Shown here: positions 6,988 to 41,519 of the stretch, one piece after another
How the letters are laid out: the number at the start of each line of letters is the position of its first letter
Numbering within the stretch: the stretch's first letter is position 1
Source: a virus
Direction: 5' to 3' (one strand)
Length of the DNA: 42,669 nucleotides
Virus record (IMG/VR): IMGVR_UViG_3300035698_031681
Location: 1 to 42,669 of that record
Position numbers and translations under genes: made by a program
The notes under the pieces: model-generated
Seen by the model: only the letters and a program-made list of their open reading frames with translations
Told to the model about the DNA's origin: nothing
Databases searched by the model: none

Positions 6988-8721
6988 TTACAAATTACCT
7001 TGAGCGAACTCGGCCAAGACTCTTGGGATATTACTATCCAGGCCAACCATATCCATCATTCCTGCATCAGTTGGATCTGCGATGCTAATGTCAGTAGCAG
7101 TGAATGCCAATACAGCCAACTTCGCCTCTTTGTTCATCGTTTGGCGATAACTCTTCAAAGCCTCGAAAGGATGCATATGACCGGCCCACGTCTCGTTGTC
7201 TGTCAGAACAACAAAAACGTCAACCATCATTTTCTTCCTCTCAGCATAGATCATAGGCAATGAGCAGTCAGTTCCACCGAAAGTCAAGTTGGCAGTCCTT
7301 CTTACAATGGTGTCCAAGCTATCCGAAGGAGTGATACCCAGATCTTCAAGCTGATCTCGGAACGCCATTATATGATACTGCTTTTCTGTTCTTGCGATTG
7401 CCATAGCAACCACGGCCGCAGCCTCAGCAGGAGTAATAGAAGTATTAGGAATAGGTTCCCATCCCATAGAACCACTTACATCAAGACCAAATAGGTATTT
7501 CTTACCAGTTGGCTCTACGTATTTGAATGCCTTGTAGAATGCCTGATCCATAGCATCTATCACAGCAGGGACAGGTGTCCAATTTGTTCTCATGCCTGCA
7601 CCTTTAGCATAGGTCTTCATCGCTAAGATGATTGTCATTGGATGGATTCTTGCCTTCTGCAAATTTTCCTCATCAGTGATCTTATCAATCACCAATGCAG
7701 TCTCATCGGCCAAAGGCTTAATCAAACCAGAAGCAGTCATTTGACCCAAGTTACGGATCAAAGCTGTCATAGGCATCTTAGGAAGCAAAGCACGTTGAAT
7801 GTCAGGGTTCTTCTGCAAATCAGGTCTTACAGATTCTCTGGTCAAATTATGATTTTTGATCAACTGCACAATATCTTTAACACTATCACTGGCTTTGCAC
7901 TGCTCATGTGCCCAGATATATTTCAATCCAGTTTCTTTCAAACCAGCAATCTCAGCGGGAGCCATCCCGATAGCTTTTTGCTTCTTATCGGTCAATGCCT
8001 CTGCTTCTTTCCTCTTAGCAACTTCCTCATCAGAAGCAACTCCATGGACCATGTAGTTAAACACAGTTGCATGTTCCTCTGATGGGATAGTCAATGCCTT
8101 ACCTGCTTTAGCAGGTCTTCCATTGGCTTGAGGAGGAGCAGGACGAGCCAAACGCAGCAAGTCTCTATGTGATAATTTCTTACCACCAACTGATCTCTCA
8201 GGATACTTGCAAGCTTGGTAAGCCAATTGCTCAGCTTTCTTTTGAGTGTACCATCTTCCGATAGCCCTCAAAATACCTGACGATCTCTTACCATCTTTCA
8301 GTTTGCTCACATTGTCAAACCACTCGAACATATCAGTAGCATACCTAGCCACTTTAGGCATCATCCTGTTGGCATAAGTTTTGGCAGCACGATCTCCGTG
8401 GACACTGCATACAGCCATTGCAAACACAGCAGGTCTGTTCTTCACAGCCCTACCCTCATCACTAATTGACACGATTGTATCAATAGTGCGTTTCCAATCT
8501 TTCTTCAAGCATCTTGTGATAACGTCATAGTTCTCAACCGCCAACTCTCTTGCCGATGCGTAGTATGTTCCACCTTCCGAACCGATAATCAAGAAACGAT
8601 TTAGACGAGTCCAGTCATCTACCTTAAAAACAAAACCACCGGCTCTGTTTTTCTTTTGACCATCTTTGGCCTTTGCCTTTTGAGGGGTCTTTCTTTTAGT
8701 TACATGATTCGCGTAAGTCAT
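6988..8721 (-). CDS. rsr: Ro60/TROVE-domain RNA-binding protein (Rsr type)
   Basis: 577 residues, close to bacterial Rsr length. Residues about 20-370 match the helical-repeat TROVE ring that binds single-stranded 3' ends of misfolded RNA and Y RNAs; the C-terminal third is a von Willebrand A fold with the metal site DVSGSMG near 412 and TFGGTDCS further on. Known Rsr proteins work with Y RNA and exonucleases in RNA quality control, and in Salmonella share an operon with RtcBA; RtcB lies about 9 kb upstream here. The Lys/Gln-rich N-terminus (about 1-30) is extra. AGGAG precedes ATG; a strong promoter with phased A-tracts is upstream. I saw no convincing Y RNA beside it. Confidence 0.92.
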   Translation of the reverse strand: MTYANHVTKRKTPQKAKAKDGQKKNRAGGFVFKVDDWTRLNRFLIIGSEGGTYYASARELAVENYDVITRCLKKDWKRTIDTIVSISDEGRAVKNRPAVFAMAVCSVHGDRAAKTYANRMMPKVARYATDMFEWFDNVSKLKDGKRSSGILRAIGRWYTQKKAEQLAYQACKYPERSVGGKKLSHRDLLRLARPAPPQANGRPAKAGKALTIPSEEHATVFNYMVHGVASDEEVAKRKEAEALTDKKQKAIGMAPAEIAGLKETGLKYIWAHEQCKASDSVKDIVQLIKNHNLTRESVRPDLQKNPDIQRALLPKMPMTALIRNLGQMTASGLIKPLADETALVIDKITDEENLQKARIHPMTIILAMKTYAKGAGMRTNWTPVPAVIDAMDQAFYKAFKYVEPTGKKYLFGLDVSGSMGWEPIPNTSITPAEAAAVVAMAIARTEKQYHIMAFRDQLEDLGITPSDSLDTIVRRTANLTFGGTDCSLPMIYAERKKMMVDVFVVLTDNETWAGHMHPFEALKSYRQTMNKEAKLAVLAFTATDISIADPTDAGMMDMVGLDSNIPRVLAEFAQGNL

Positions 8722-16431: not shown

Positions 16432-16654
16432 TTTTTTTACTCCTGTTTCTTTTATAGGGTCCGCCTTCTACGTCTTCTAAATATTTAAGCTCCCATACAG
16501 CCCACTCTAGACACTCTTTAACCACCCGATGATCAGCATCAGTATGTGCCCCATTCTTTATTACTTTTTTTAGATGATCTATATGCCTCAATAGAGTATC
16601 TTGCTTTGCCTTATGCTCTAGTGATTTCATCTTCTTTTTCTCTGGTGACTTCAT
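16418..16654 (-). CDS. small helical protein, paralogue of 17250..17441
   Basis: 78 residues. The core (LRHIDHLKKVIKNGAHTDAD, then VVKECLEWAVWELKYLED) aligns with that of 17250..17441 (MIKYIDRLDKI..., IVAQCLKWAVLELKFIKE). A basic 'KKKMKS' repeat leads it. The two copies flank the PEP-CTERM gene in the same operon. ATGA overlap with the PEP-CTERM stop. Function unknown. Confidence 0.6.
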   Translation of the reverse strand: MKSPEKKKMKSLEHKAKQDTLLRHIDHLKKVIKNGAHTDADHRVVKECLEWAVWELKYLEDVEGGPYKRNRSKKNARY

Positions 16655-17253
16655 CTTCTCTTTCTCCTACGCAGTAACCCTACTCCACCCAACCCCAACA
16701 GTAAAATAGTAGCAGGTTCAGGGGTAACTGCTGGGCCTGGGACACCACCTAGTATGTGAAAATAGATAGGCTCACTATATCCATAGCCTATCACTTCTCC
16801 CACTAATTTATGTTCTCCCGGAGGAATCTCCCAACCTCCCATCAACCAATCGTCATATTGATCTCCCCATATTCTCCCAGTTCGAGGAGGCAACGATAAA
16901 TAACTTTTAATACGAGAACCAGGAAAAATATCTGCGGCACGATATATATCATCTATAATAAAGGTTGACTGCACACTCCGTTCAAACCCTAAATTCACTG
17001 TTTTGTTTTTATGAGGATTGTAGACACTAATCTGTATATCTATAAACTCCCCATCAAAATACCAATAATCTCCGGTAGATACGGTAATATTTAACTTTGG
17101 ATTTTTAGTCAGTTTGAAGTTATCAGGCTTATCCAAAATTAAGTTAGCCTCTGCTGCATTACACAGCAGGGCTGTTATCAACAGAAAGACGATACTCGCT
17201 ATTGTTATCATTAGTTTAAACTGCCATGTCATTTCTTTTCGAGATCGTTTCAT
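16651..17253 (-). CDS. PEP-CTERM sorted exported protein
   Basis: 200 residues: a basic N-terminus and hydrophobic signal (about 11-30) ending near CNAAEA, a beta-rich middle domain, and a C-terminal sorting signal PEPATILLLGLGGVGLL followed by RRRKRR. PEP-CTERM proteins are exported by Gram-negative hosts and processed by exosortase. Finding one inside a tight viral-style operon (4-base overlaps on both sides) suggests the element sends a protein to the host envelope using host exosortase. The middle domain is unassigned. Confidence 0.85.
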   Translation of the reverse strand: MKRSRKEMTWQFKLMITIASIVFLLITALLCNAAEANLILDKPDNFKLTKNPKLNITVSTGDYWYFDGEFIDIQISVYNPHKNKTVNLGFERSVQSTFIIDDIYRAADIFPGSRIKSYLSLPPRTGRIWGDQYDDWLMGGWEIPPGEHKLVGEVIGYGYSEPIYFHILGGVPGPAVTPEPATILLLGLGGVGLLRRRKRR

Positions 17254-17444: not shown

Positions 17445-18299
17445 TTATCCCTTCAACACTGCTAAGGGCGTTAATCTCATAACTGGCTCTACTAAATCTG
17501 ACTGAGCCTTGATTACCATATCAATATCTTTGTAAGCTTGTGGAGCTTCTCCAAGATCCATCAAACCTGTATCTTTATTCTTCTTCCTGCTCTTCAACTT
17601 CTTGAATCCGTCGAAAACTATACCTTCCATGTCCTTATCGCAGTCTTCCTTTGATAAGCTTCTTGAAGCGTTCATTCTTCCCATCTTTCTTCCTGCTCCA
17701 TGAGAGCAAGAGTTAAAAGAATCAGCGTTACCTAATCCCCTTACGATGTAAGAAGCAGTTCCCATAGATCCAGGGATAATTCCTAACTCACCTTTTCTAG
17801 CTGAAGTTGCACCTTTCCTATGCACCCATACATCTTGTCCGAAGTGGTGTTCTAAAGAAGCAAAGTTGTGATGAATGTTGATCTCGTTAGAGAAATCTAC
17901 ACCTTCTATCACTGAACATACAGATAGCTTGAAAGCGTCCATCATTCTCTTTCTATTTTCTGCTGCATACTCTAATGCCAATTGCATATCTTGCAAATAG
18001 TCTTTCCCTTCTTGACTATTAGTAGGCAAAAATGAAGAATCTTCGTTAGGAATATTTGAGTGCCACTTCTTATTTAATCCAACTGCTATTTTATGGTGAT
18101 ACTCAGCAGTCTTATATCCTAAATTTCTAGAACCAGAGTGAACCATAAGACAAAGAACTCCCTCAGCATCTTTTTGAATTTCCTGGAAGTGGTTGCCTGT
18201 CCCGAGAGTCCCAAGCCCATCAGCCATATAACCTACCAGCTCTTCTTTAGTTTCTACTCCTATCATTTCTTTTAATCTACTAAATGGTATTTTTGACAT
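17445..18299 (-). CDS. rtcB: RtcB RNA ligase, C-terminal piece
   Basis: 284 residues holding most of the RtcB active site: GTGNHF (His37), VHSGSRNLG (His54), NIHHNF (His143/144), HRKGATSARKG, PGSMGTASYIV and CSHGAGR with His200, the residue guanylylated in RtcB. RtcB joins 2',3'-cyclic phosphate or 3'-phosphate RNA ends to 5'-OH ends. The metal ligands Asp and Cys lie on the separate piece at 19145..19576. This piece has its own ATG with GGAG eight bases upstream, inside the end of the endonuclease gene. Removing MSK leaves IPFSRLKEM, which would follow the other piece's last residues VDFDK directly. Confidence 0.9.
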   Translation of the reverse strand: MSKIPFSRLKEMIGVETKEELVGYMADGLGTLGTGNHFQEIQKDAEGVLCLMVHSGSRNLGYKTAEYHHKIAVGLNKKWHSNIPNEDSSFLPTNSQEGKDYLQDMQLALEYAAENRKRMMDAFKLSVCSVIEGVDFSNEINIHHNFASLEHHFGQDVWVHRKGATSARKGELGIIPGSMGTASYIVRGLGNADSFNSCSHGAGRKMGRMNASRSLSKEDCDKDMEGIVFDGFKKLKSRKKNKDTGLMDLGEAPQAYKDIDMVIKAQSDLVEPVMRLTPLAVLKG

Positions 18300-19071
18300 T
18301 ACTCAATCTCCAAAAACGATTTTTAATCGAACTAATACTTCTATTTAAATACTGTGATGAATATTCAATAGTGTGATTTAGAACAAATTTATCTTGTTCT
18401 TCATTCCATGGTACTTTTCTAACTATCTTTCTCATATTTTTAGGTCTCTTCCATTTTAACGCTTCCTTAGCTTTCAACATCTTCCTATCTAAGCATAAGC
18501 AAAACTTATAATATAACTTTTTGATAACCAGTTGAGCATCTTCTTTATATAAACAAATGTTATAAATATTGTCTCTTTTGTTTCGTTTTGTTCTTTTAAC
18601 TTCTCCCGTTATTTTTTCCAGAAATAACATATATTCCTGAGCTAAAATTTCACTATCTGTAGTCAAAGATAAAAAAGGAAATTTTTGGGAAGTTGTTCCT
18701 AATGAACCATCTCCATCAATAATACCTCTCCAGTAATCAATGACAGAATGCCTGTCTGATGGTGGTTTAATAATTTTACTCTTTTTACCAACTGGCACAT
18801 AAGGCTTAATCCACTCTCGAAAATCTTTGTTATATATTCTTATATAAATAGACTCATATATCTGTCCATTGGTATAATTAGTTATAGTTTCTCGACTCTT
18901 TATAGTATAATTGCAAGTTAATAAATCAGCAACTTTTTTAATTATATCTTTATCCTTTTCACTAATTTCTAAAGATACTCTTCCTCTGTTTCTAGTACTA
19001 GCACTATGATGTCCATCTGTTTGTAACAATCCTACCATATACGAGATTAACGGATCTTCTAAATTATACAT
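18280..19071 (-). CDS. LAGLIDADG homing endonuclease inserted in rtcB
   Basis: 263 residues with two LAGLIDADG motifs, YMVGLLQTDGH (about 10-20) and YWRGIIDGDGSLG (about 113-125), so a monomeric homing endonuclease that cuts an unsplit rtcB allele and copies itself in. The C-terminal 55 residues (KVPWNEEQDKFVLNHTIEYS...) look like a SANT/Myb-type DNA-binding tail. It has its own AAGGAG site, and its stop overlaps the downstream rtcB piece by 20 bases. Only about 75 bases lie between the upstream rtcB stop and this gene, too few for a group I intron core unless the core overlaps the coding sequence. Confidence 0.92.
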   Translation of the reverse strand: MYNLEDPLISYMVGLLQTDGHHSASTRNRGRVSLEISEKDKDIIKKVADLLTCNYTIKSRETITNYTNGQIYESIYIRIYNKDFREWIKPYVPVGKKSKIIKPPSDRHSVIDYWRGIIDGDGSLGTTSQKFPFLSLTTDSEILAQEYMLFLEKITGEVKRTKRNKRDNIYNICLYKEDAQLVIKKLYYKFCLCLDRKMLKAKEALKWKRPKNMRKIVRKVPWNEEQDKFVLNHTIEYSSQYLNRSISSIKNRFWRLSNVKNTI

Positions 19072-19085
19072 TTGTATCTCCTTAA

Positions 19086-19118
19086 AAATGATTTAATGTA
19101 TTTCACATACTATCATTT
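19086..19118 (-). promoter_or_regulatory. hairpin in the homing-endonuclease leader
   Basis: On the minus strand AAATGAT/ATCATTT (7 bp) encloses a GTAT/ATAC stem and is followed by TTTTAAGGAG, the endonuclease ribosome site. It could be a weak terminator or a brake on endonuclease expression. Confidence 0.45.
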
Positions 19119-19144
19119 CTAAGAAAAATACGTAATTCCTCTAT

Positions 19145-19576
19145 TTATTTATCAAAATCTACATTTTTTTCTAACCACTCTTCTACCCACTCTTTATTAC
19201 TCTGGAACTCCTTGCTATTATGTTGATGATGAGCAAATCCTACAGGAGTAGTAGTTTTTACTATAGAAATAATTTTTTGCAAATCTTGCTTCGATACTTC
19301 GTCTGCTAAAATGTTACTTCTAATAGACCCCATTCCACAACCAATATCCACTCCGACAAAAAATGGACAAATAGCATCTTTTAACGCACACACTCCACCA
19401 ATAGGTAATGCGTACCCTGTATGTGTATCAGGCATTAAAGATACATGGTGAAATATAGCAGGATGATTAGAAGCATTTACGGCCTGAGATAGGCAGCTTT
19501 CCTCTACATCCTCTATCTTATCCAACCAAATTTTGATAGGTACTTTTTGCTTTGCTTCGTCATTTATTATAAACAT
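19145..19576 (-). CDS. rtcB: RtcB RNA ligase, N-terminal piece
   Basis: 143 residues matching the start of RtcB: HHVSLMPDTHTGYALPIGG (about 43-61) and VGVDIGCGMGS (about 75-84), in which Asp77 and Cys80 are manganese ligands. It stops with VDFDK at a TAA created where the homing endonuclease gene was inserted. The two pieces sum to 427 residues, a normal RtcB length, and together carry every catalytic residue I can check. AAGGA precedes the ATG. It follows the ATPase-peptidase gene by 26 bases. Confidence 0.9.
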   Translation of the reverse strand: MFIINDEAKQKVPIKIWLDKIEDVEESCLSQAVNASNHPAIFHHVSLMPDTHTGYALPIGGVCALKDAICPFFVGVDIGCGMGSIRSNILADEVSKQDLQKIISIVKTTTPVGFAHHQHNSKEFQSNKEWVEEWLEKNVDFDK

Positions 19577-19602: not shown

Positions 19603-21621
19603 CTATCCAATTTGTTTCTTTTTTCGATCTATTACGCTTTGTTTAATCTTTTTATATGCTTTTTCCCCCGCAAATTTCTGATATATTTCTTCATAACCAG
19701 GGTAAAGAGTATTTTCTGTGTCATGTACTTCAATCATAATACTACTACTTTTAGCTAATTCTTGAAACTTTTCTGGATTAATAGTTTCATGTTCAATAAT
19801 ATAATTAGATACTTTTCGTAGGAAATCTAAATTTTGCCTGAGAATCTCCGAAGCTGCATCTTTACATTCTACTAATAAATTTTCCATCTTTTCATGAGTT
19901 TTGTCAACATCAAAAAATACGTTTCTCCCAGTAAGAGTATTAGCAGGATTTTGAATAAGTCCATTGTACCCATCAAAACCCCATTCTCTTACATAATTAC
20001 TAACAACAGTAGTGGCCTGTTTTATATCGCTGGCCGCACCATTGGTTTTATTAATGTCTCCAAATACAGATTCTTCAGCAACCATTCCTGCCATAAGAAC
20101 CGTTATTTTTTTCTTAAGTAATTCTTTAGAACCAACCAGAGAATGCATTCCAACATAACCACCCACTCTTTCCAAAGATGCATTCCCCACCACTTGAGAA
20201 GGAGCAAGATTAAAACAAATAGCATATGCCACGCCATGACCTGCTTCATGAACAGCAGTAACAACTCTTTGATTAAAAGATGTTTCTGATCTAATTTTAT
20301 CAAGAGTTCCTTCTACCGGGTATTTAACTTCTTTCTCCCCCAAAGACGCTACAAAATTACCATCTCTGTAAGAGACCATTATTTGTACAATATTATTTAT
20401 TAGACAAAACATTACTACATTGGGAATGGCATTTCCTACAGTGGCAGAAATAGTGGAAAGTACTGGCCTAACTCCCTGAGAAGGGAATACTCCATTACGA
20501 TAAATAAAATCATATACTCCCTGATCTAAATCTATTTTTATCTTATTATCCTTAAAAGTTATATCCAGCATTTCTTGTGTTTTTCGTTTAATAATCTCTT
20601 CGTAACTCCTCCTGCTCAAAGATGGATAAACAAGATGAACATTCCCAAAACGAGATATTTGTTCCGGTTTAAATCTATTGCCTAAAGCCTCCTTAATGGA
20701 AATCATATTGATTCTTTTAGAAGCTGCATGGAAAATATCAGCATCAATATCGGCATCATCAGCAGTGTCGGCCATAGGATAAGCTTCATCTAAATTACCT
20801 GATACGAAAATTAATAAACGAGAATACGCCTCTCCTTCAAATGTAGTTTGATCATGCATAGCATCTAAAATAAGTTGCTGCTTTTTAGAAGCGTCCCATT
20901 GCATAATCTTAACTATATCCTCTTTTAAACGCAAAGCTTTCTTAAGATATCTGGATTCATAATAAGTCTGTTTATATTTTGAATCCTTTATCATAATTTT
21001 CTCTTCTTCTTTTTTTTTCTTGCTCTTCCGTTTCTTTCTTTTTGTTTCTTCTTTTTTTTCTTCTTCTTCTCTCTCCTGCTTATCTTCTTCCAACATGGAT
21101 TCAATATAAAACTGCATTAATCTACTTTTTTGATAACCATCTGGCCCAAATTTACCATCACTTAATAAAGCCCATAAATCTTGAAATTTCACATCGGGAA
21201 TATCGATTTTATGCTCATCAATGGTTCTAAATTTTTGAATCTCATCAAGTAGCAATATCCCTGGTTCATCAGTTTCAAGACTAGAATAATCAAGCACAGT
21301 TTTAATCGATGTGTCCCCCCATATATTGCCTCCTTTTGTACTCAAATCACTTTCTACAAACTTATCTCCAAAATTTAATTCTCTCACTAAATTTCTAACT
21401 AAATCAGTCTTCCCAACTCCGGTTAATCCCCATAAGCAAATAATAACGGGCCGACATATAACTTCTGGCATAATGTACCATACCTGAATATTGTCAATAA
21501 TCCTATCAATAATATCATCAATCCCTATAAATTTCTTCTTCAAATTCAAAGCAACATTTACTAATTTTTTCTTACCTTCTTCTATCCTATTGATTATTTT
21601 TTCGTGTTTTATCTTTGCCAT
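19603..21621 (-). CDS. Clp-type AAA+ ATPase fused to FtsH-type M41 peptidase
   Basis: 672 residues. The N-terminal half is a Clp/ClpB-type AAA+ domain: Walker A GLTGVGKT (65-72), Walker B GILLLDE (121-127), and RFGNVHLVYPSLSRRSYEEI, typical of the end of a Clp D2 ATPase. A highly charged Lys/Glu insert lies near 185-215. The C-terminal third is an M41 zinc peptidase: HEAGH (about 457-461) and the third ligand Asp in AASDIKQAT (about 531). FtsH normally carries M41 on a classical AAA domain with membrane anchors; here there are none, so this would be a soluble protease with a different motor. It probably degrades host or viral proteins. Confidence 0.85.
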   Translation of the reverse strand: MAKIKHEKIINRIEEGKKKLVNVALNLKKKFIGIDDIIDRIIDNIQVWYIMPEVICRPVIICLWGLTGVGKTDLVRNLVRELNFGDKFVESDLSTKGGNIWGDTSIKTVLDYSSLETDEPGILLLDEIQKFRTIDEHKIDIPDVKFQDLWALLSDGKFGPDGYQKSRLMQFYIESMLEEDKQEREEEEKKEETKRKKRKSKKKKEEEKIMIKDSKYKQTYYESRYLKKALRLKEDIVKIMQWDASKKQQLILDAMHDQTTFEGEAYSRLLIFVSGNLDEAYPMADTADDADIDADIFHAASKRINMISIKEALGNRFKPEQISRFGNVHLVYPSLSRRSYEEIIKRKTQEMLDITFKDNKIKIDLDQGVYDFIYRNGVFPSQGVRPVLSTISATVGNAIPNVVMFCLINNIVQIMVSYRDGNFVASLGEKEVKYPVEGTLDKIRSETSFNQRVVTAVHEAGHGVAYAICFNLAPSQVVGNASLERVGGYVGMHSLVGSKELLKKKITVLMAGMVAEESVFGDINKTNGAASDIKQATTVVSNYVREWGFDGYNGLIQNPANTLTGRNVFFDVDKTHEKMENLLVECKDAASEILRQNLDFLRKVSNYIIEHETINPEKFQELAKSSSIMIEVHDTENTLYPGYEEIYQKFAGEKAYKKIKQSVIDRKKKQIG

Positions 21622-21667: not shown

Positions 21668-22084
21668 TTACTTCATTGATTCATTCATAAAGTCGGCCGC
21701 TGCCTCCAAACTATCAAACACCTTGGCTCCGTTACCTTCTACCATTGTAGACACTGCACCCAGAGACTTCCATTGTCCCTCTGTGAATTTTTCTTCTCCG
21801 TCTTTTTCTATACAGACAAAAATAGTTTTATCAGGACGTTTATTTGAATCATCTACCACCTCTGCAATAGAGTAAACTCCGGTCATTTTCGGAGTAATGG
21901 TATAGAGACAAAAATCACATGTTTCTCGTTCCTGTATTTCCTGCTCCATACACTCTGAAGTCCAATCATCGACAACAGGATTAAAGTAATCAATATCTAA
22001 CGAATCGATAATTGTGTCTCTCCATGTCGATTCGTTGCACGTGCCCATTAATGCTACTCTCTTATTTTTTGCTTTTTCTTGCAT
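21668..22084 (-). CDS. nucleoside 2-deoxyribosyltransferase-like protein
   Basis: 138 residues. Pattern: VALMGTCNESTWRD (about 10-23), YFNPVVDDWT, a helix QEIQERETCDFCLYTITPKM and SIAEVVDDSNKRP, as in the short nucleoside deoxyribosyltransferase-like family common in phages and bacteria. Family members cleave or exchange bases of nucleosides or nucleotides. The protein may act in nucleotide salvage. AGAGG lies seven bases before ATG; the start overlaps the GIY-YIG gene end by 23 bases. Confidence 0.75.
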   Translation of the reverse strand: MQEKAKNKRVALMGTCNESTWRDTIIDSLDIDYFNPVVDDWTSECMEQEIQERETCDFCLYTITPKMTGVYSIAEVVDDSNKRPDKTIFVCIEKDGEEKFTEGQWKSLGAVSTMVEGNGAKVFDSLEAAADFMNESMK

Positions 22085-22658
22085 CTCTGTACCTCTTTCT
22101 AATACTGTTAATAGTGGTTAACTTAACGTTATATATTTTGGATATTTTTCTTAAAGAAAAACCATAATTAAACAAATCCATCATTTCTCTTTCTGTCTGA
22201 TCATCTAATTTTCTACATGACTTAGATCTATTTGCTATTGCCTCTTTGGAGTGAGATCGGCCTGTCAAAGTTTTACTTATTTTTCTTTTTTGCTCCTCAC
22301 TGATAGTCCCTCCCTTTAACCTTTCTGAATATCTTTTATAAATATCATCATGCAACCTACCGAATTCCCCACCATAGGTTTTATTATACCCAAAAGACCT
22401 ATCATACGTATTCTTGTCTTTTATCCAGTATTTCTCTCTTTCTGACAAAGCCTCTTCTGCACATTCTTCAATAATATAAAATTCAAATGATTGAGAACCA
22501 TATTTATTAAAAGAAGATTGTAAATGTCTATTCTTATGAGTCCCGTCTCTTAGCCTTCTTTTATGAAATAAAAAACGATATTCGATATCTTTGCTTAAAC
22601 CTATATACATCTTATTACTTACCGTATTTTTAATAATATATATCCCTGTTGTTCCCAT
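22062..22658 (-). CDS. GIY-YIG homing endonuclease with NUMOD3-like repeat
   Basis: 198 residues from the ATG with GGAG six bases upstream; an in-frame TTG 11 codons earlier is less likely. The N-terminal domain has GIYIIKN...MYIGLS (the GIY and YIG strands), and a catalytic Glu probably in EREKYWIKDKN. GRSHSKEAIANRS is a NUMOD3-type DNA-binding segment, and the end (SLRKISKIYNVKLTTINSIR) is a helix-turn-helix. It is a freestanding mobile endonuclease gene; I see no split gene around it. Confidence 0.88.
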   Translation of the reverse strand: MGTTGIYIIKNTVSNKMYIGLSKDIEYRFLFHKRRLRDGTHKNRHLQSSFNKYGSQSFEFYIIEECAEEALSEREKYWIKDKNTYDRSFGYNKTYGGEFGRLHDDIYKRYSERLKGGTISEEQKRKISKTLTGRSHSKEAIANRSKSCRKLDDQTEREMMDLFNYGFSLRKISKIYNVKLTTINSIRKRYRDARKSKK

Positions 22659-22695
22659 ATCTAACTCCATAAAAAAAGAGCAAATCCTCAATCCT

Positions 22696-23223: not shown

Positions 23224-23964
23224 TTAGGCCCACTGTAATATCTCTTTTATCTCTGCCTCAAGTTCTTCGTCTGTGTATGACTCTACCACATCTAATCTTT
23301 TATCTGATACTTTATCTCCTATTATCCATAACTGATTTAGTAAATTTCTACCATCTACTTCTGTATTATGGCATAGGACACTTGGTATAGAAGTGTCATG
23401 CCTCTCTTCTACGTAAGCTCCTGGCATAATAAACGGCATAAAACCAGCTGAAAGAAATCTTAACGCCAGATCTATATCTGCCAACTGACCAGAAAATCTT
23501 CTGTCTATCCCTCCTAATTCATCCCATGTCTGCCTATTAAAGATTGTTCCCATAGACATAACAGGAGAATTATCCTTAGTATGATCGGCTACCAGAAGAT
23601 TATCCCAAAATTGCCCATGAGATTTAAACCTGGTCCCGATAAGGGAGTTTTTCATATATAGCTTATCCACATAATAACTGAACCAGTCTAAATACCCCGA
23701 AGAATAAAGACAATCATCAGAGGTTATTACTAAATATTCCCCTATTGCTTGACGAGAAGCCATTTCCACTGCCATAGGCTGCTTCGCATCCGTTACTATA
23801 TATTTAAAATTAGAAGGCATAAGCCCATCAGGGGGGTTAAAACCTGCAAAGATTACTTCATATTTACTATTTCCTTCATTATTTAATAGGGAGTTATAAG
23901 TGGCCAGATATTCATCTTTGCCTCTTATACCTCCTCCAACAAAACTAATCTTCACATCTGACAC
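23224..23964 (-). CDS. family 2-type glycosyltransferase
   Basis: 246 residues with a GT-A layout: a beta-alpha nucleotide-binding start (KISFVGGGIRGKDEYLATYN), VEMASRQAIGEYLVITSDDC in which SDD is the probable metal-binding DxD equivalent (about 82-84), then MGTIFNRQTWDELGGIDRRF and a DIDLALRFLSAG acceptor region. It would move a sugar from an activated donor, perhaps to DNA, glycan or a surface protein. The start is GTG with AGGAG eight bases before it. Confidence 0.8.
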   Translation of the reverse strand: MSDVKISFVGGGIRGKDEYLATYNSLLNNEGNSKYEVIFAGFNPPDGLMPSNFKYIVTDAKQPMAVEMASRQAIGEYLVITSDDCLYSSGYLDWFSYYVDKLYMKNSLIGTRFKSHGQFWDNLLVADHTKDNSPVMSMGTIFNRQTWDELGGIDRRFSGQLADIDLALRFLSAGFMPFIMPGAYVEERHDTSIPSVLCHNTEVDGRNLLNQLWIIGDKVSDKRLDVVESYTDEELEAEIKEILQWA

Positions 23965-23981
23965 AAATCTATCTCCTATGC

Positions 23982-24809
23982 CTACTCGTCGGTATAATCT
24001 ACCACCTCATCTTTATTCTTCTCTAGTCTCTTTTCTTTCATTAGTAGATATTCATCATTAAGCATCTTCAATGTTTTTCTACCGACTGACCTATGTTCGC
24101 CTTCTTCAACAGAGGTAACAACCACACCTTCTCTAATATGCACAGTATTATTCTCGGTAGCAACTAAAGATGGCCCTTCTGACAACTTCTTTATAAGGTC
24201 AAAATCAAATTCCGTTTCGGCAATTACAGGGGCCATAGGGATACCATGAGTTTCACAAAATACTTTGAAGAACGGCCATGACACATAGTTACCATCTATC
24301 TTCAAAGCAAAAGCTGCGTAGCATAACTCATTAGGTTTGCCATAGTTCATACTCTTTAGTCCACCTGTAACACTACCGTACAACTCTCCATACAGAGTAA
24401 CGATCTTCACCTTGCTCAGAAGCAGCCTATTGTGTCTGCCTCCATTTCTTTTATAACCGGCAAAGAACTTCATCAAACTTTGAACACCTTCCAGAGTATG
24501 AGGATGCCAATAGATATTCTTCTTGGTATCTTCTTTTTTAGGTTTCTTCCTTTTTACATTATGAGATCCGGCTTTGTAAATAATCCTTGGGCCGAACCAT
24601 TTAGGGAACCACTTGCCTAACCAGGTACCAGTCACCCATCTATCCTGTATCTCGATACCGACTCTGCTGTTGCTCCCATCAATTTTCTCAGTGATTATTA
24701 CCTTTTCTCCCTGTTCAAATATATCAGGGAAATTTCTCATATTCTCTATATTATTGAATCTCTCGAATAGAGGATCCTCTGGGGCCGCATTACCACCAGT
24801 ACCTCTCAC
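23982..24809 (-). CDS. RNA ligase (DRB0094/Rnl5-like), nucleotidyltransferase part
   Basis: 275 residues from a GTG just after an in-frame TAA. All ligase motifs are present: motif I EKIDGSN with nucleophile Lys42, motif III YGELYG (about 130-135), motif IV EGVVVTS, and motif V around RKTLKMLNDEYL. The enzyme would adenylylate and seal RNA 3'-OH/5'-PO4 ends. In DRB0094-type ligases this domain is continuous with an N-terminal OB-type domain, here 24819..25157 in the same frame. The GTG has no ribosome site before it, so expression may need readthrough of the TAA. Confidence 0.85.
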   Translation of the reverse strand: MRGTGGNAAPEDPLFERFNNIENMRNFPDIFEQGEKVIITEKIDGSNSRVGIEIQDRWVTGTWLGKWFPKWFGPRIIYKAGSHNVKRKKPKKEDTKKNIYWHPHTLEGVQSLMKFFAGYKRNGGRHNRLLLSKVKIVTLYGELYGSVTGGLKSMNYGKPNELCYAAFALKIDGNYVSWPFFKVFCETHGIPMAPVIAETEFDFDLIKKLSEGPSLVATENNTVHIREGVVVTSVEEGEHRSVGRKTLKMLNDEYLLMKEKRLEKNKDEVVDYTDE

Positions 24810-24818
24810 AGGAGGTTC

Positions 24819-25157
24819 TTATTTAGTAATACCATAATGTTCTGCTACATCAGTTCCTACTTTCCAACTCTTTTCATTGGCAACGATCAAACCAGCAGAC
24901 ACTTCGCCTCTTAGTCTGATCCTCTTAACCCTGTCATGGTTCTTACCAACCAAGTAATTCTTAACTCCCCATCTCTCAGCCAGAGCATCAGGGATCAAAG
25001 AGTCCGGTGGGATATAGACTATAGCATCTCCTGCCTTAAATTCATTAAGCTTAACCACACACTCCCAACCTTTGATGACGGCCATTTCCAGAGCATCAGC
25101 GTTTTTGTGATCCTTTATTTCTTCAATTTTACATACTTCTACTATTAAACTACTCAT
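24819..25157 (-). CDS. RNA ligase (DRB0094/Rnl5-like), N-terminal OB-type domain
   Basis: 112 residues matching the N-terminal domain of DRB0094-type ligases: VCKIEEIKDHKNADALEMAV (about 7-26), YIPPDSLIPD, and RIRLRGEVSAGLIV. It ends GITK-TAA, and the next codons read EPPVRG. In this family the linker commonly runs 'ITKYEPP', so the TAA stands where Tyr is expected (TAT or TAC changed in the last base). The next ORF is in the same frame. AAGGAG lies ten bases before the ATG. Confidence 0.82.
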   Translation of the reverse strand: MSSLIVEVCKIEEIKDHKNADALEMAVIKGWECVVKLNEFKAGDAIVYIPPDSLIPDALAERWGVKNYLVGKNHDRVKRIRLRGEVSAGLIVANEKSWKVGTDVAEHYGITK

Positions 25158-26094
25158 CTTTTTCTAACTCCTTCTTTAAATCTTCCCAATCCACTCCTTC
25201 TTCCGCTGCTTCTTTATCCAGTTCTTCCTGAGCTTTGTCGTGTTCCTCTGGAGATCCATACTCAGAAATCCCTTCACACAGGGCAGAGAAAAACTCATAC
25301 ACACTCATGCATGTCTCTGCTTCAAAAATAATACTGGTATCCGAATCAAAATCCATTAGTTTATCAGATTTTTTACGGAAGACAGTTTTTTCGACTTCCA
25401 CTTTTTCCTTCATTTTCACAAGAAGGTTTTTAATCTCACAAAGAGGAACGAAAGCAAGAGCAACACCAGGGCCAGGAGCTTCGGGATCCTCATTGATTCC
25501 TCCGAAATCAAAACCTACTGTTATATCTTTTTCTCCATCCCATTCTCCATGATCGAAACATTCAACAAATTGCATTGCCTGCAAATAGTCAATGCCTTGC
25601 CATTTTTCATCACTAGTTGGTTCAGATTCAAGACCATCAATCCAAAGTTGGATGTCGTAGCCATACAACGCACTACTGAACACAATATTAAATACTTCCT
25701 TCTCTGCTTTAATCAGACGGAACACATCTCCCAAAGTAGTATCCTCAGCAAATCCGATAGCATCGTTCAGAGAATAACGGAAAACAGTTTTTTTATCTTT
25801 ATCTATTGCTTTCTTAATAACGACTTCTGGTTTCTCACCTTTTACTTCTTTAACAGAAGTAGGGAAATGTCCCATAGCACGAATTTTCCTTGCAGCTTCC
25901 TGAGTGTCGGCAGCGGTGATGATAATGCCGTTAAGTTCTTGCCCCATCGCATCAAGTGCTTCACAAGTGAATACAGGGCCAGAATAAATTTCAGGTTCTC
26001 CCTGCTCATTCCAGTCCCAAATCACTATTTCATCAGACTCTTTGGGGGTATCCTGATCTGTATATATAACTCTATTTTTTTCTATAACAATCAC
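25150..26094 (-). CDS. hypothetical acidic protein with GspF-N-like segment
   Basis: 314 residues, strongly acidic, especially the last 60. A segment near 60-85 (TQEAARKIRAMGHFPTSVKE) resembles the short N-terminal repeat of type II secretion GspF proteins, but no membrane segments follow. The rest (LNDAIGFAEDTTLGDVFRLI...) is unassigned. Start is GTG with AAGGAG nine bases upstream. It overlaps the RNA ligase N-terminal gene by 8 bases, so it is co-translated with it. Confidence 0.6.
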   Translation of the reverse strand: MIVIEKNRVIYTDQDTPKESDEIVIWDWNEQGEPEIYSGPVFTCEALDAMGQELNGIIITAADTQEAARKIRAMGHFPTSVKEVKGEKPEVVIKKAIDKDKKTVFRYSLNDAIGFAEDTTLGDVFRLIKAEKEVFNIVFSSALYGYDIQLWIDGLESEPTSDEKWQGIDYLQAMQFVECFDHGEWDGEKDITVGFDFGGINEDPEAPGPGVALAFVPLCEIKNLLVKMKEKVEVEKTVFRKKSDKLMDFDSDTSIIFEAETCMSVYEFFSALCEGISEYGSPEEHDKAQEELDKEAAEEGVDWEDLKKELEKDE

Positions 26095-26149: not shown

Positions 26150-27205
26150 TTATAGTAACCTATTTTTTGCTATATTACAATAACTATTTTCTAAATCTAT
26201 ACCTAAATATTGTCTGTTTAGAGTTTTGGCTGCCAGACAGGTCTGCCCTGAGCCACAGAAGGGGTCCACCACCAAATCCCCCTCTTTCGACAGTAATAAT
26301 ATTAACTCACTTACCACTTTTAAGGGATATACGGCAGGATGGTCAATGCCTTTGGTATCAGCCACAGAAGTTTCTATAATGTCTCTTTTAAGCTTCTTAC
26401 CATACATTCTTATAATGGTATATCCTTGCTTGTCTATTTGGCTGTTCCTGCCTCCAGGTTGGCCCCCAAAGGCTTTTTTATGTATCCCTCGTATCTTCAT
26501 CCTAAAATCAGTTATTTTGCCTTCATAGAGGTCTCTGAGAGTTTTATCAAGATTAATAATGGCGTTATGTTTCTCTTGTATAGTAAGGGAAGATCCAAAA
26601 ACTAACTGCTTATAATGCGTATTTCTTTCAGAGGCAGTAACCTCAATATCCTCTTCTGCAAATATATCAATATCTTCTACCCTGGAGTTGTATTTATTCC
26701 TATCTTCTTTATTAGTTCGGGATAGGAAACTATGAAGATCATAATAATAATCATCACTTTTAACAAAGTGGAAAAATGGCTCTGTAGCACTAACTAATCT
26801 TTTTTGGTGAGGTTTGGGAGTTGGGTTAGTTTTGGCCCATGTGATGTTGTTTATCAGTTTCACAGGGAAATTATCTAACATTCTAATAGCAAATTTATAG
26901 GGTATCAACCGAAGTGATTTGTCTATATGTTTATCCCCTAAGTTAAAAACAATATTGCCTGTATCTTTGGTTATTCTAACACATGATTGAAAGACATTAT
27001 ATAGACGATCCAGATACCGATCAATAGAGCGTTCCTGCCCTATCTCCCAACCGGCTTCTGGATCATCCGCATCTCTCCTCTGAGCGAGATTATATTTACG
27101 TTGTTGAAAGTAAGGTGGAGAACTGAGTATCAAATCAACAGAAGAACTGTCTAATAAAGATAATTCCTCTGAAGCATTCCCACATATAATTTTATTCATC
27201 ATCAC
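26150..27205 (-). CDS. DNA methyltransferase, beta class
   Basis: 351 residues with catalytic SSPPYF (about 28-33) and AdoMet motif VVDPFCGSGQT (about 310-320), in beta-class order. It lacks the cysteine insert of the other two methyltransferases and carries instead a long middle region (about 170-270, KTLRDLYEGKITDFRMKI...). GGQPGGRNSQ and GIDHPAVYPLKV match the target-recognition end seen in N4-cytosine and N6-adenine enzymes. No nuclease gene is beside it. Start is GTG/ATG in GTGATGATG, overlapping the upstream gene's end by 14 bases. Confidence 0.85.
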   Translation of the reverse strand: MMMNKIICGNASEELSLLDSSSVDLILSSPPYFQQRKYNLAQRRDADDPEAGWEIGQERSIDRYLDRLYNVFQSCVRITKDTGNIVFNLGDKHIDKSLRLIPYKFAIRMLDNFPVKLINNITWAKTNPTPKPHQKRLVSATEPFFHFVKSDDYYYDLHSFLSRTNKEDRNKYNSRVEDIDIFAEEDIEVTASERNTHYKQLVFGSSLTIQEKHNAIINLDKTLRDLYEGKITDFRMKIRGIHKKAFGGQPGGRNSQIDKQGYTIIRMYGKKLKRDIIETSVADTKGIDHPAVYPLKVVSELILLLSKEGDLVVDPFCGSGQTCLAAKTLNRQYLGIDLENSYCNIAKNRLL

Positions 27206-39649: not shown

Positions 39650-40422
39650 GGCAGAGTCTCCTTAATAATCCTACATACACCTTTTTTTATCAAATCCGAC
39701 AACACAAAGTTACAAGTTCCATACCCAGGAATATGAGCGGCTTCTTTAATTCCTACAGTAATACATGACTTATCACTTACTGGCCCATCTTGCACTTCCG
39801 CCCATTTAGATAAAAGAAAGTCAAAAGCTGTTGGGTAGTATAAAAGATAATGTTCTGGCGTTTTAACCAGCATATAAATATCGTTATCCTCATTATATTT
39901 AGCATAATATTCTAAATTATAATCTTTAAAATATTGTGGCCCTGTAAAATTTTTCACCTCTAAATAACTAATATCGTCCCTATAAGTAATTTTATAATCA
40001 GGGTAAGCAAGTTCTTTTTTCCTTTCGGAAAAATTACCTATTACCAACAGCCCTTTAAGATCACTACCACAACTTTCCCATTTAACAGACCCTCCGAAAG
40101 CCATACATGTCTTCTCAAAGTCCTTATAACAATTCAAAAAAGTTCGGTGTTCATTATAATGATGCACGACCGACATATTCGTAAAGTTTGCGGGGTTTCT
40201 ACCATCTATCCTTGTGTTAAAACTGCGTCTGTCTCGCTCAGAGAAGATTCCCTCTCCCACACAAAAATCTATATATTTACACATCTTTACGCTTACCGAT
40301 TCCTCCAATGCTCTATTTTTACTTGCTTTGGCAGCCATCTCCATCAACTTTTTTTCTGCTTCTAACTGTTGGTCAGTTGCCAAATTACCTTTTGGCAAAA
40401 AATGTTCCCGTGCTTTCATCAT
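39634..40422 (-). CDS. putative PD-(D/E)XK nuclease, partner of methyltransferase
   Basis: 262 residues. A PD-(D/E)XK-type core is visible: PD at 141-142 and EVK at 155-157 (PDYKITYRDDISYLEVKNFT), preceded by a candidate Glu/Asp helix. The rest lacks a known family. Its ATG shares one base with the methyltransferase's stop (TAATG), so the two are co-translated as in type II restriction-modification gene pairs. The assignment as restriction enzyme is inference; another nuclease role, or none, is possible. Confidence 0.6.
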   Translation of the reverse strand: MMKAREHFLPKGNLATDQQLEAEKKLMEMAAKASKNRALEESVSVKMCKYIDFCVGEGIFSERDRRSFNTRIDGRNPANFTNMSVVHHYNEHRTFLNCYKDFEKTCMAFGGSVKWESCGSDLKGLLVIGNFSERKKELAYPDYKITYRDDISYLEVKNFTGPQYFKDYNLEYYAKYNEDNDIYMLVKTPEHYLLYYPTAFDFLLSKWAEVQDGPVSDKSCITVGIKEAAHIPGYGTCNFVLSDLIKKGVCRIIKETLPWPTG

Positions 40423-41519
40423 TAAAAATCCTTAATATCCCACACTTCTTCTACCCTTAACATATCTTCAGATAACTCCCCCCTTGCTATCTCTAAATAT
40501 TCCTTATTCACATCTATCCCCACATAATCCTGGTTATAAACAAAAGCAGCTTGGCCAGTCCTACCTGTTCCATTAAAAGGATCCAACACCAAACAACGAC
40601 TACTCTCTTTAACATCAGGCTTAGGTTTGCATTCGCATTTTAATTGCCACCCTGTCACTGCTAATCTTAAAGCATAACCCTTTTTATTATCTGCTGGCTC
40701 TTTCACTTTCTCTATTGTTCTCTCCCAAGGTTTTTTACAAACAGGGCAGCATCCCTTCTCTGACGTAGAGGCTTGTATGCAAGGAGTAATAAGTGGAATA
40801 GGGAATGTAGCATAATGACCTCCCTTGAAACTTGATACCGCAGTAGTCCAAACTGCTCTTTTGTTCCTCTTCCCATAATGCTCGAAAGTTCTACCCTGGT
40901 CCATACGAAATGTTCCTTGTTGTTCATTAGCACCAAATTTTCGTGCTTTACCAGTGTGACTATTTGTGTCCTCCAGTACCGCATAATAATCATAAAAATA
41001 TTTAGAGGATTTGCTAAACATAAAGACATACTCATGTCCACGAGTTGGTCTATCCTTGGCTCCATCAGGCATAGGATCTGTCTTGTTCCAAATTATATCA
41101 CACCTCAAGTACCATCCATCTTTTCTCATTGCCAAAGCAAACATCCATGGGATACCTATTAAATCTTTTTGTTTGATCTCAGGGTGCTTAAATGCTTTCC
41201 TATCTGCCGATCCCTTACTCCTACCTTTTCTCGCAAACCCTTTTGTGGCCCTGCAAAATCCAGCATTGTTATTATACCCATCACCAATCACTACCCAGAG
41301 AGTCCCATCTTTTCTCAATGTTCTCTTTACTTCTTTGAATATATTTACCAAATTCTCTATATATTCTTCAGGAGTGGTCTCTTGACCTAATTGATCATCT
41401 GCACAATAGTCTCTTAACTGCCAATAGGGAGGAGATGTAACGCAAGTATGAAAAGTATTATCAGAGATACCTTGCAATTTTTCTGCTGCGTCACCATGTA
41501 ACAACATAAATTTATTCAT
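40422..41519 (-). CDS. DNA methyltransferase, beta class, with zinc-ribbon insert
   Basis: 365 residues with TSPPYWQLRDY (about 28-38) and DPFNGTGRTGQ (about 312-322). It has the same cysteine insert as 640..1719 (GCCPVCKKPW...CECKP, about 255-285) and is its paralogue. The target-recognition region differs from its paralogue's, so it may have another target. The adjacent, overlapping nuclease candidate suggests a type II restriction-modification pair. TAATG overlap with the P-loop gene, AGGGA before ATG. Confidence 0.88.
   Translation of the reverse strand: MNKFMLLHGDAAEKLQGISDNTFHTCVTSPPYWQLRDYCADDQLGQETTPEEYIENLVNIFKEVKRTLRKDGTLWVVIGDGYNNNAGFCRATKGFARKGRSKGSADRKAFKHPEIKQKDLIGIPWMFALAMRKDGWYLRCDIIWNKTDPMPDGAKDRPTRGHEYVFMFSKSSKYFYDYYAVLEDTNSHTGKARKFGANEQQGTFRMDQGRTFEHYGKRNKRAVWTTAVSSFKGGHYATFPIPLITPCIQASTSEKGCCPVCKKPWERTIEKVKEPADNKKGYALRLAVTGWQLKCECKPKPDVKESSRCLVLDPFNGTGRTGQAAFVYNQDYVGIDVNKEYLEIARGELSEDMLRVEEVWDIKDF

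Follow-up and report, generated by a model that had tools for sequence, protein, structure and literature searches.

An in-frame TAA in the linker of a phage Rnl5-type RNA ligase gene, most likely a simple gene defect or an erroneous base

Gene layout and the interrupting stop

Does an in-frame stop codon inside an otherwise open phage RNA ligase gene mark a broken copy, an error in the sequence, or a special way of making the enzyme? The gene is located on the minus strand of virus record IMGVR_UViG_3300035698_031681, analysed here over its whole length of 42,669 bases (the window); nearly all window genes are on this strand. Its OB-fold half (24819..25157, minus strand) starts with ATG at 25157 behind a strong Shine-Dalgarno sequence (AAGGAG, -8.3 kcal/mol) and ends with TAA after 112 aa. 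The stop (24821..24819, minus strand) is codon 113, where the linker motif ITKYEPP has its Tyr, and the interrupted linker reads YGITK-stop-EPPVRG. As assembled, TAA is a single base away from a Tyr codon. Past the stop the frame runs GAA CCT CCT GTG and is open down to 23982 (275 aa). This nucleotidyltransferase half (23982..24818, minus strand; PF09414) is in the same frame as the OB half. The first GTG after TAA is at 24809, three codons on, and a candidate ATG restart is at 24740. Inspection of ORFs and frame confirms what an earlier, sequence-only reading had described, namely two domains in one frame with TAA and three codons between them. The upstream neighbour ORF (25150..26094, minus strand) shares 8 nt with the beginning of the OB half; the downstream neighbour ORF (23224..23964, minus strand) is intact. 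Neither neighbour gave a match in Pfam or PHROG.

Family assignment

The OB half matches PF21189 (63 bits on 24819-25157), the N-terminal OB fold of the TIGR02306 family. The downstream half matches PF09414 RNA_ligase (57.2 bits). The read-through frame scores 160.7 bits against TIGR02306 RNA_lig_DRB0094 over residues 10-372 (cut-off 151); taken separately, the halves score 79.8 (OB) and 53.8 bits (nucleotidyltransferase), and the cut-off is passed by the read-through frame only. This frame is also a full-length match to PHROG 968 (167.6 bits), with the OB half at phrog_968 positions 10-136. Identity of the read-through ligase to phage members is 25-35%. The nearest solved relative is the Naegleria gruberi RNA ligase (NgrRnl), with the linker ITKWEPP. 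The predicted model of the read-through protein (pLDDT 87.9, pTM 0.87) is closest to NgrRnl 6VTD and 6VTF (TM 0.68-0.79), with T4 Rnl2 next. Judged by profile and model matches, the protein that the read-through frame would encode is a phage Rnl5-type (DraRnl/NgrRnl-like) ATP-dependent RNA ligase. The RNA-ligase identity and domain order first read from the letters are right, according to the PF21189, PF09414 and TIGR02306 matches.

The predicted protein shares with Rnl5 / DraRnl (TIGR02306; NgrRnl PDB 5COT, 6VTD) the N-terminal OB fold, the linker ITK-aromatic-EPP, and a nucleotidyltransferase domain with KxDG and motifs III, IV and V. It differs by TAA at the linker Tyr, by changes at Q268 and motif IIIa D284, and by its layout in two ORFs with a restart that lacks support; the two domains of Rnl5 / DraRnl are carried by one polypeptide, and here they are parted by TAA. 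The PHROG 968 phage RNA ligases (Caulobacter CcrPW, Pseudomonas JG004, Aeromonas 44RR2.8t and others) share the full-length match, and the phage and viral relatives examined are all open across the linker. T4 RNA ligase 2 (Rnl2) shares the nucleotidyltransferase fold (2HVR, 1S68) but is without the N-terminal OB domain, and the window protein aligns to it by the downstream half only.

The stop column among relatives

The gene was compared with 89 relatives, 9 from annotated phage records and 80 from IMG/VR loci. The codon-113 column is always aromatic (Tyr in 84, Trp in 3, Phe in 2) and is a stop in none of the 89. Relatives were picked with patterns that included the Tyr-containing stretch, which biases the figure of 84 of 89 toward Tyr; a separate stop-pattern scan of viral contigs was therefore run. 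GITK-stop-EPP (TAA or TAG) was found in 0 viral contigs and GITK-Tyr-EPP in at least 120, in a scan that may omit the window's own record. The alignment with relatives, proposed earlier as a check, thus bears out a stop where Tyr is expected and leaves all 89 relatives intact at this column. As far as could be tested with these relatives and contigs, the stop appears private to the window's record. Single-protein scans (the ligase, an FtsH-like ORF, the upstream ORF and a methyltransferase) gave no usable close kin of the virus, and neither did a GTDB genome scan or a megablast of phages and plasmids.

Intactness of all relatives at the stop column would be expected if the population ligase were intact and the contig carried one wrong or rare base, whether from a mistake in consensus or assembly or from a minority haplotype. 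The one-base distance to a Tyr codon and the fully open remainder of the gene are consistent with this. However, none of the window's other family-recognised genes seemed damaged by a point change, and the mild divergence of the downstream half (below) is unexpected from an error alone. An error or rare haplotype is rated as less likely than a true mutation, yet as a realistic possibility.

One viral relative is broken elsewhere. At locus L061 (4965-7418 of IMGVR_UViG_3300028377_000003) the Rnl5 ligase is split within catalytic motif I (EKIHG, then C...HN, then S). The N-intein ends at a stop at about 5747; the ORF between the intein halves is of DUF7487/HTH type, a possible endonuclease; a separate C-intein ORF (TIGR01443, 34 bits) bears the remaining ligase. 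This ligase looks like one interrupted by a naturally split intein, in which case protein splicing would rejoin both pieces. Unlike L061, the window has no intein-like element at its stop.

Decoding signals at the stop

TAA, which terminates 30 of the 58 ORFs, is the window's most frequent stop, and a TAA-reassigned genetic code is therefore rejected. TAA terminators in the window precede A, T and G alike. No tRNA genes are present in the 42,669 bases, and an Rfam scan of the window gave no family at gathering score and no known RNA element at the stop. The small hairpin after the stop pointed out earlier (ACCTC-CTGTGA-GAGGT, 24798..24816, minus strand) does exist, but it is not significant: z is -0.73 over 52 nt and -1.21 over 122 nt, no better than shuffled sequence, which rules out a structured readthrough element. 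Two marks of programmed readthrough are thus lacking here, a stimulatory structure after the stop and a stop conserved with both sides kept (0 of 89 relatives, 0 viral contigs).

Readthrough of TAA by a near-cognate tRNA or a suppressor could yield some full-length ligase. The frame is kept on both sides, and such decoding could place an aromatic residue at the codon-113 column. Among bacterial stops, UAA generally leaks least. Readthrough, one of the options raised by the sequence-only reading, found no support: TAA is the main stop of the window whatever base follows, and tRNA genes, significant structure and relatives with the stop are all absent. It is regarded as very improbable.

Restart is likewise without a signal. 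A Shine-Dalgarno sequence is absent before GTG 24809 (-1.5 kcal/mol) and before ATG 24740 (-1.7 kcal/mol); the median for window genes is -5.9 and the mean for random positions -2.5 kcal/mol. The remark that the downstream GTG has no ribosome site therefore holds. There is no evidence of programmed decoding at the stop, nor any mark of restart.

A two-chain ligase would need stop-restart at GTG 24809 or ATG 24740 to give two separate halves, which would then assemble. The position of the stop is compatible with this: the linker in which it falls joins two domains that are predicted to be compact (model pLDDT 97 before residue 110, 76 at 111-120, 93-97 after 130). The downstream frame is open for its 275 codons, and PHROG 548 includes standalone NTase-type RNA ligases. 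Against it, neither restart has a Shine-Dalgarno sequence, GTG is a weak start, no relative shares such a split, and of the two halves it is the downstream one that has diverged more. Separate chains, also proposed at first sight of the sequence, gain a little from the domain layout and nothing from a ribosome site, and are considered rather improbable. A bolder form, a naturally split Rnl5 with chains made by coupled stop-restart and acting in trans, the motif IIIa change being adaptive, is thought quite improbable. If the halves do function as separate chains, the gene would be a natural test of the independence of OB domain and catalytic core in Rnl5.

Condition of the downstream half

The downstream half keeps the nucleotidyltransferase signature of Rnl5: the catalytic lysine of KxDG (KIDGS in the window), motif III Glu, motif IV Glu-Gly and motif V Lys. 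The motif IIIa F-D and conserved Gln of Rnl5 are replaced by F-A and K. Gln268, in the motif III region, is Lys in the window (Gln in 82 of 84 relatives). Motif IIIa Asp284 is Ala (Asp in 78 of 84 relatives, Ala in none). NgrRnl retains the equivalents of both Gln268 and Asp284. The earlier statement that all downstream motifs are intact is thus correct for the lysine and motifs III, IV and V, and fails at Q268K and at motif IIIa D284A.

No further stop or frameshift occurs across the 275 downstream codons, and codon usage of this half is similar to that of other genes; any decay is therefore of short standing. Conserved positions were defined by at least 90% agreement among 36 clade members. 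After the stop the window departs from this consensus at 5 of 27 such positions, more than any other member (mean of the others 1.3, highest 4); ahead of the stop it does so at 0 of 9. Among the five, H160D and T162S produce the common KxDGS form and may be harmless. On the downstream half the window has the lowest score of 11 with both PF09414 (57.2 bits; ten relatives 59.5-91.9) and TIGR02306 (53.8 bits; ten relatives 54.7-97.6). The identity ratio between halves is extreme (0.79 vs 1.01 +/- 0.05). The branch-length ratio between halves on a fixed tree is high but not extreme, and because it ranks only fourth of 30, the identity ratio is not given much weight as a sign of decay. In sum, the comparisons weakly suggest a downstream half under relaxed constraint and not a brand-new event. 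The first inference, that intact motifs speak against long decay, keeps the open frame on its side; it is weakened by the downstream half, which has diverged further than any other in the comparison.

The extreme identity ratio could also come from domain exchange, with halves from different ligase lineages and the stop marking their junction. The OB half is closest to L013, L014 and L036, and the other half to L015, L012 and L033. The OB data nevertheless fit the clade of the other half equally well (p-AU 0.56), and a domain swap is not required by the AU test. Such an exchange is hardly credible.

Interpretation of the stop

Most likely the gene copy is simply broken or the sequence is wrong at this base; nothing points to a special decoding trick. 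The particular account given slightly better than an even chance is a plain nonsense mutation at the linker Tyr codon of a dispensable phage Rnl5-type RNA ligase. A single nonsense change would end an otherwise ordinary Rnl5 ligase. From the good start of the OB half the ribosome would make this domain of 112 aa and halt at TAA, so that little or none of the nucleotidyltransferase half would be produced; the RNA ligase is on this ground probably off in this genome. The gene was perhaps already dispensable before the stop arose, since the downstream half appears mildly relaxed though its frame is open. Unless the halves work as separate chains, this would suggest that a phage can manage without some of its RNA repair genes.

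Other genes of the window

This uncultured phage carries three RNA-repair-related genes (Ro60, RtcB and Rnl5), two of them interrupted, in different ways. The Ro60 homologue (6988-8721, minus strand) has TROVE and Ro60-type vWA domains and belongs to the same phage as RtcB and Rnl5. RtcB (17445-19576, minus strand) is cut by about 0.85 kb that holds a LAGLIDADG ORF (18280-19071). Between them the two RtcB pieces account for the protein, the pattern expected of an intron, but none of the Rfam intron families gives a match.

A PEP-CTERM-like tail in the translation of 16651-17253 hints at a planctomycete host. The gene at 19603-21621 (minus strand) encodes a protein of 672 aa that combines an AAA/Clp-type ATPase part with an FtsH-type M41 peptidase at its C-terminus; a peptide scan gave no relatives of this FtsH-like protein. 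A GIY-YIG endonuclease ORF (22062-22691, minus strand) overlaps the next gene, a nucleoside deoxyribosyltransferase-like ORF. Three similar DNA-methyltransferase-like genes are present on the minus strand (640-1719, 26150-27205 and 40422-41519). The first of them matches PHROG methyltransferases, and all three match the same loci, L020 and L079.
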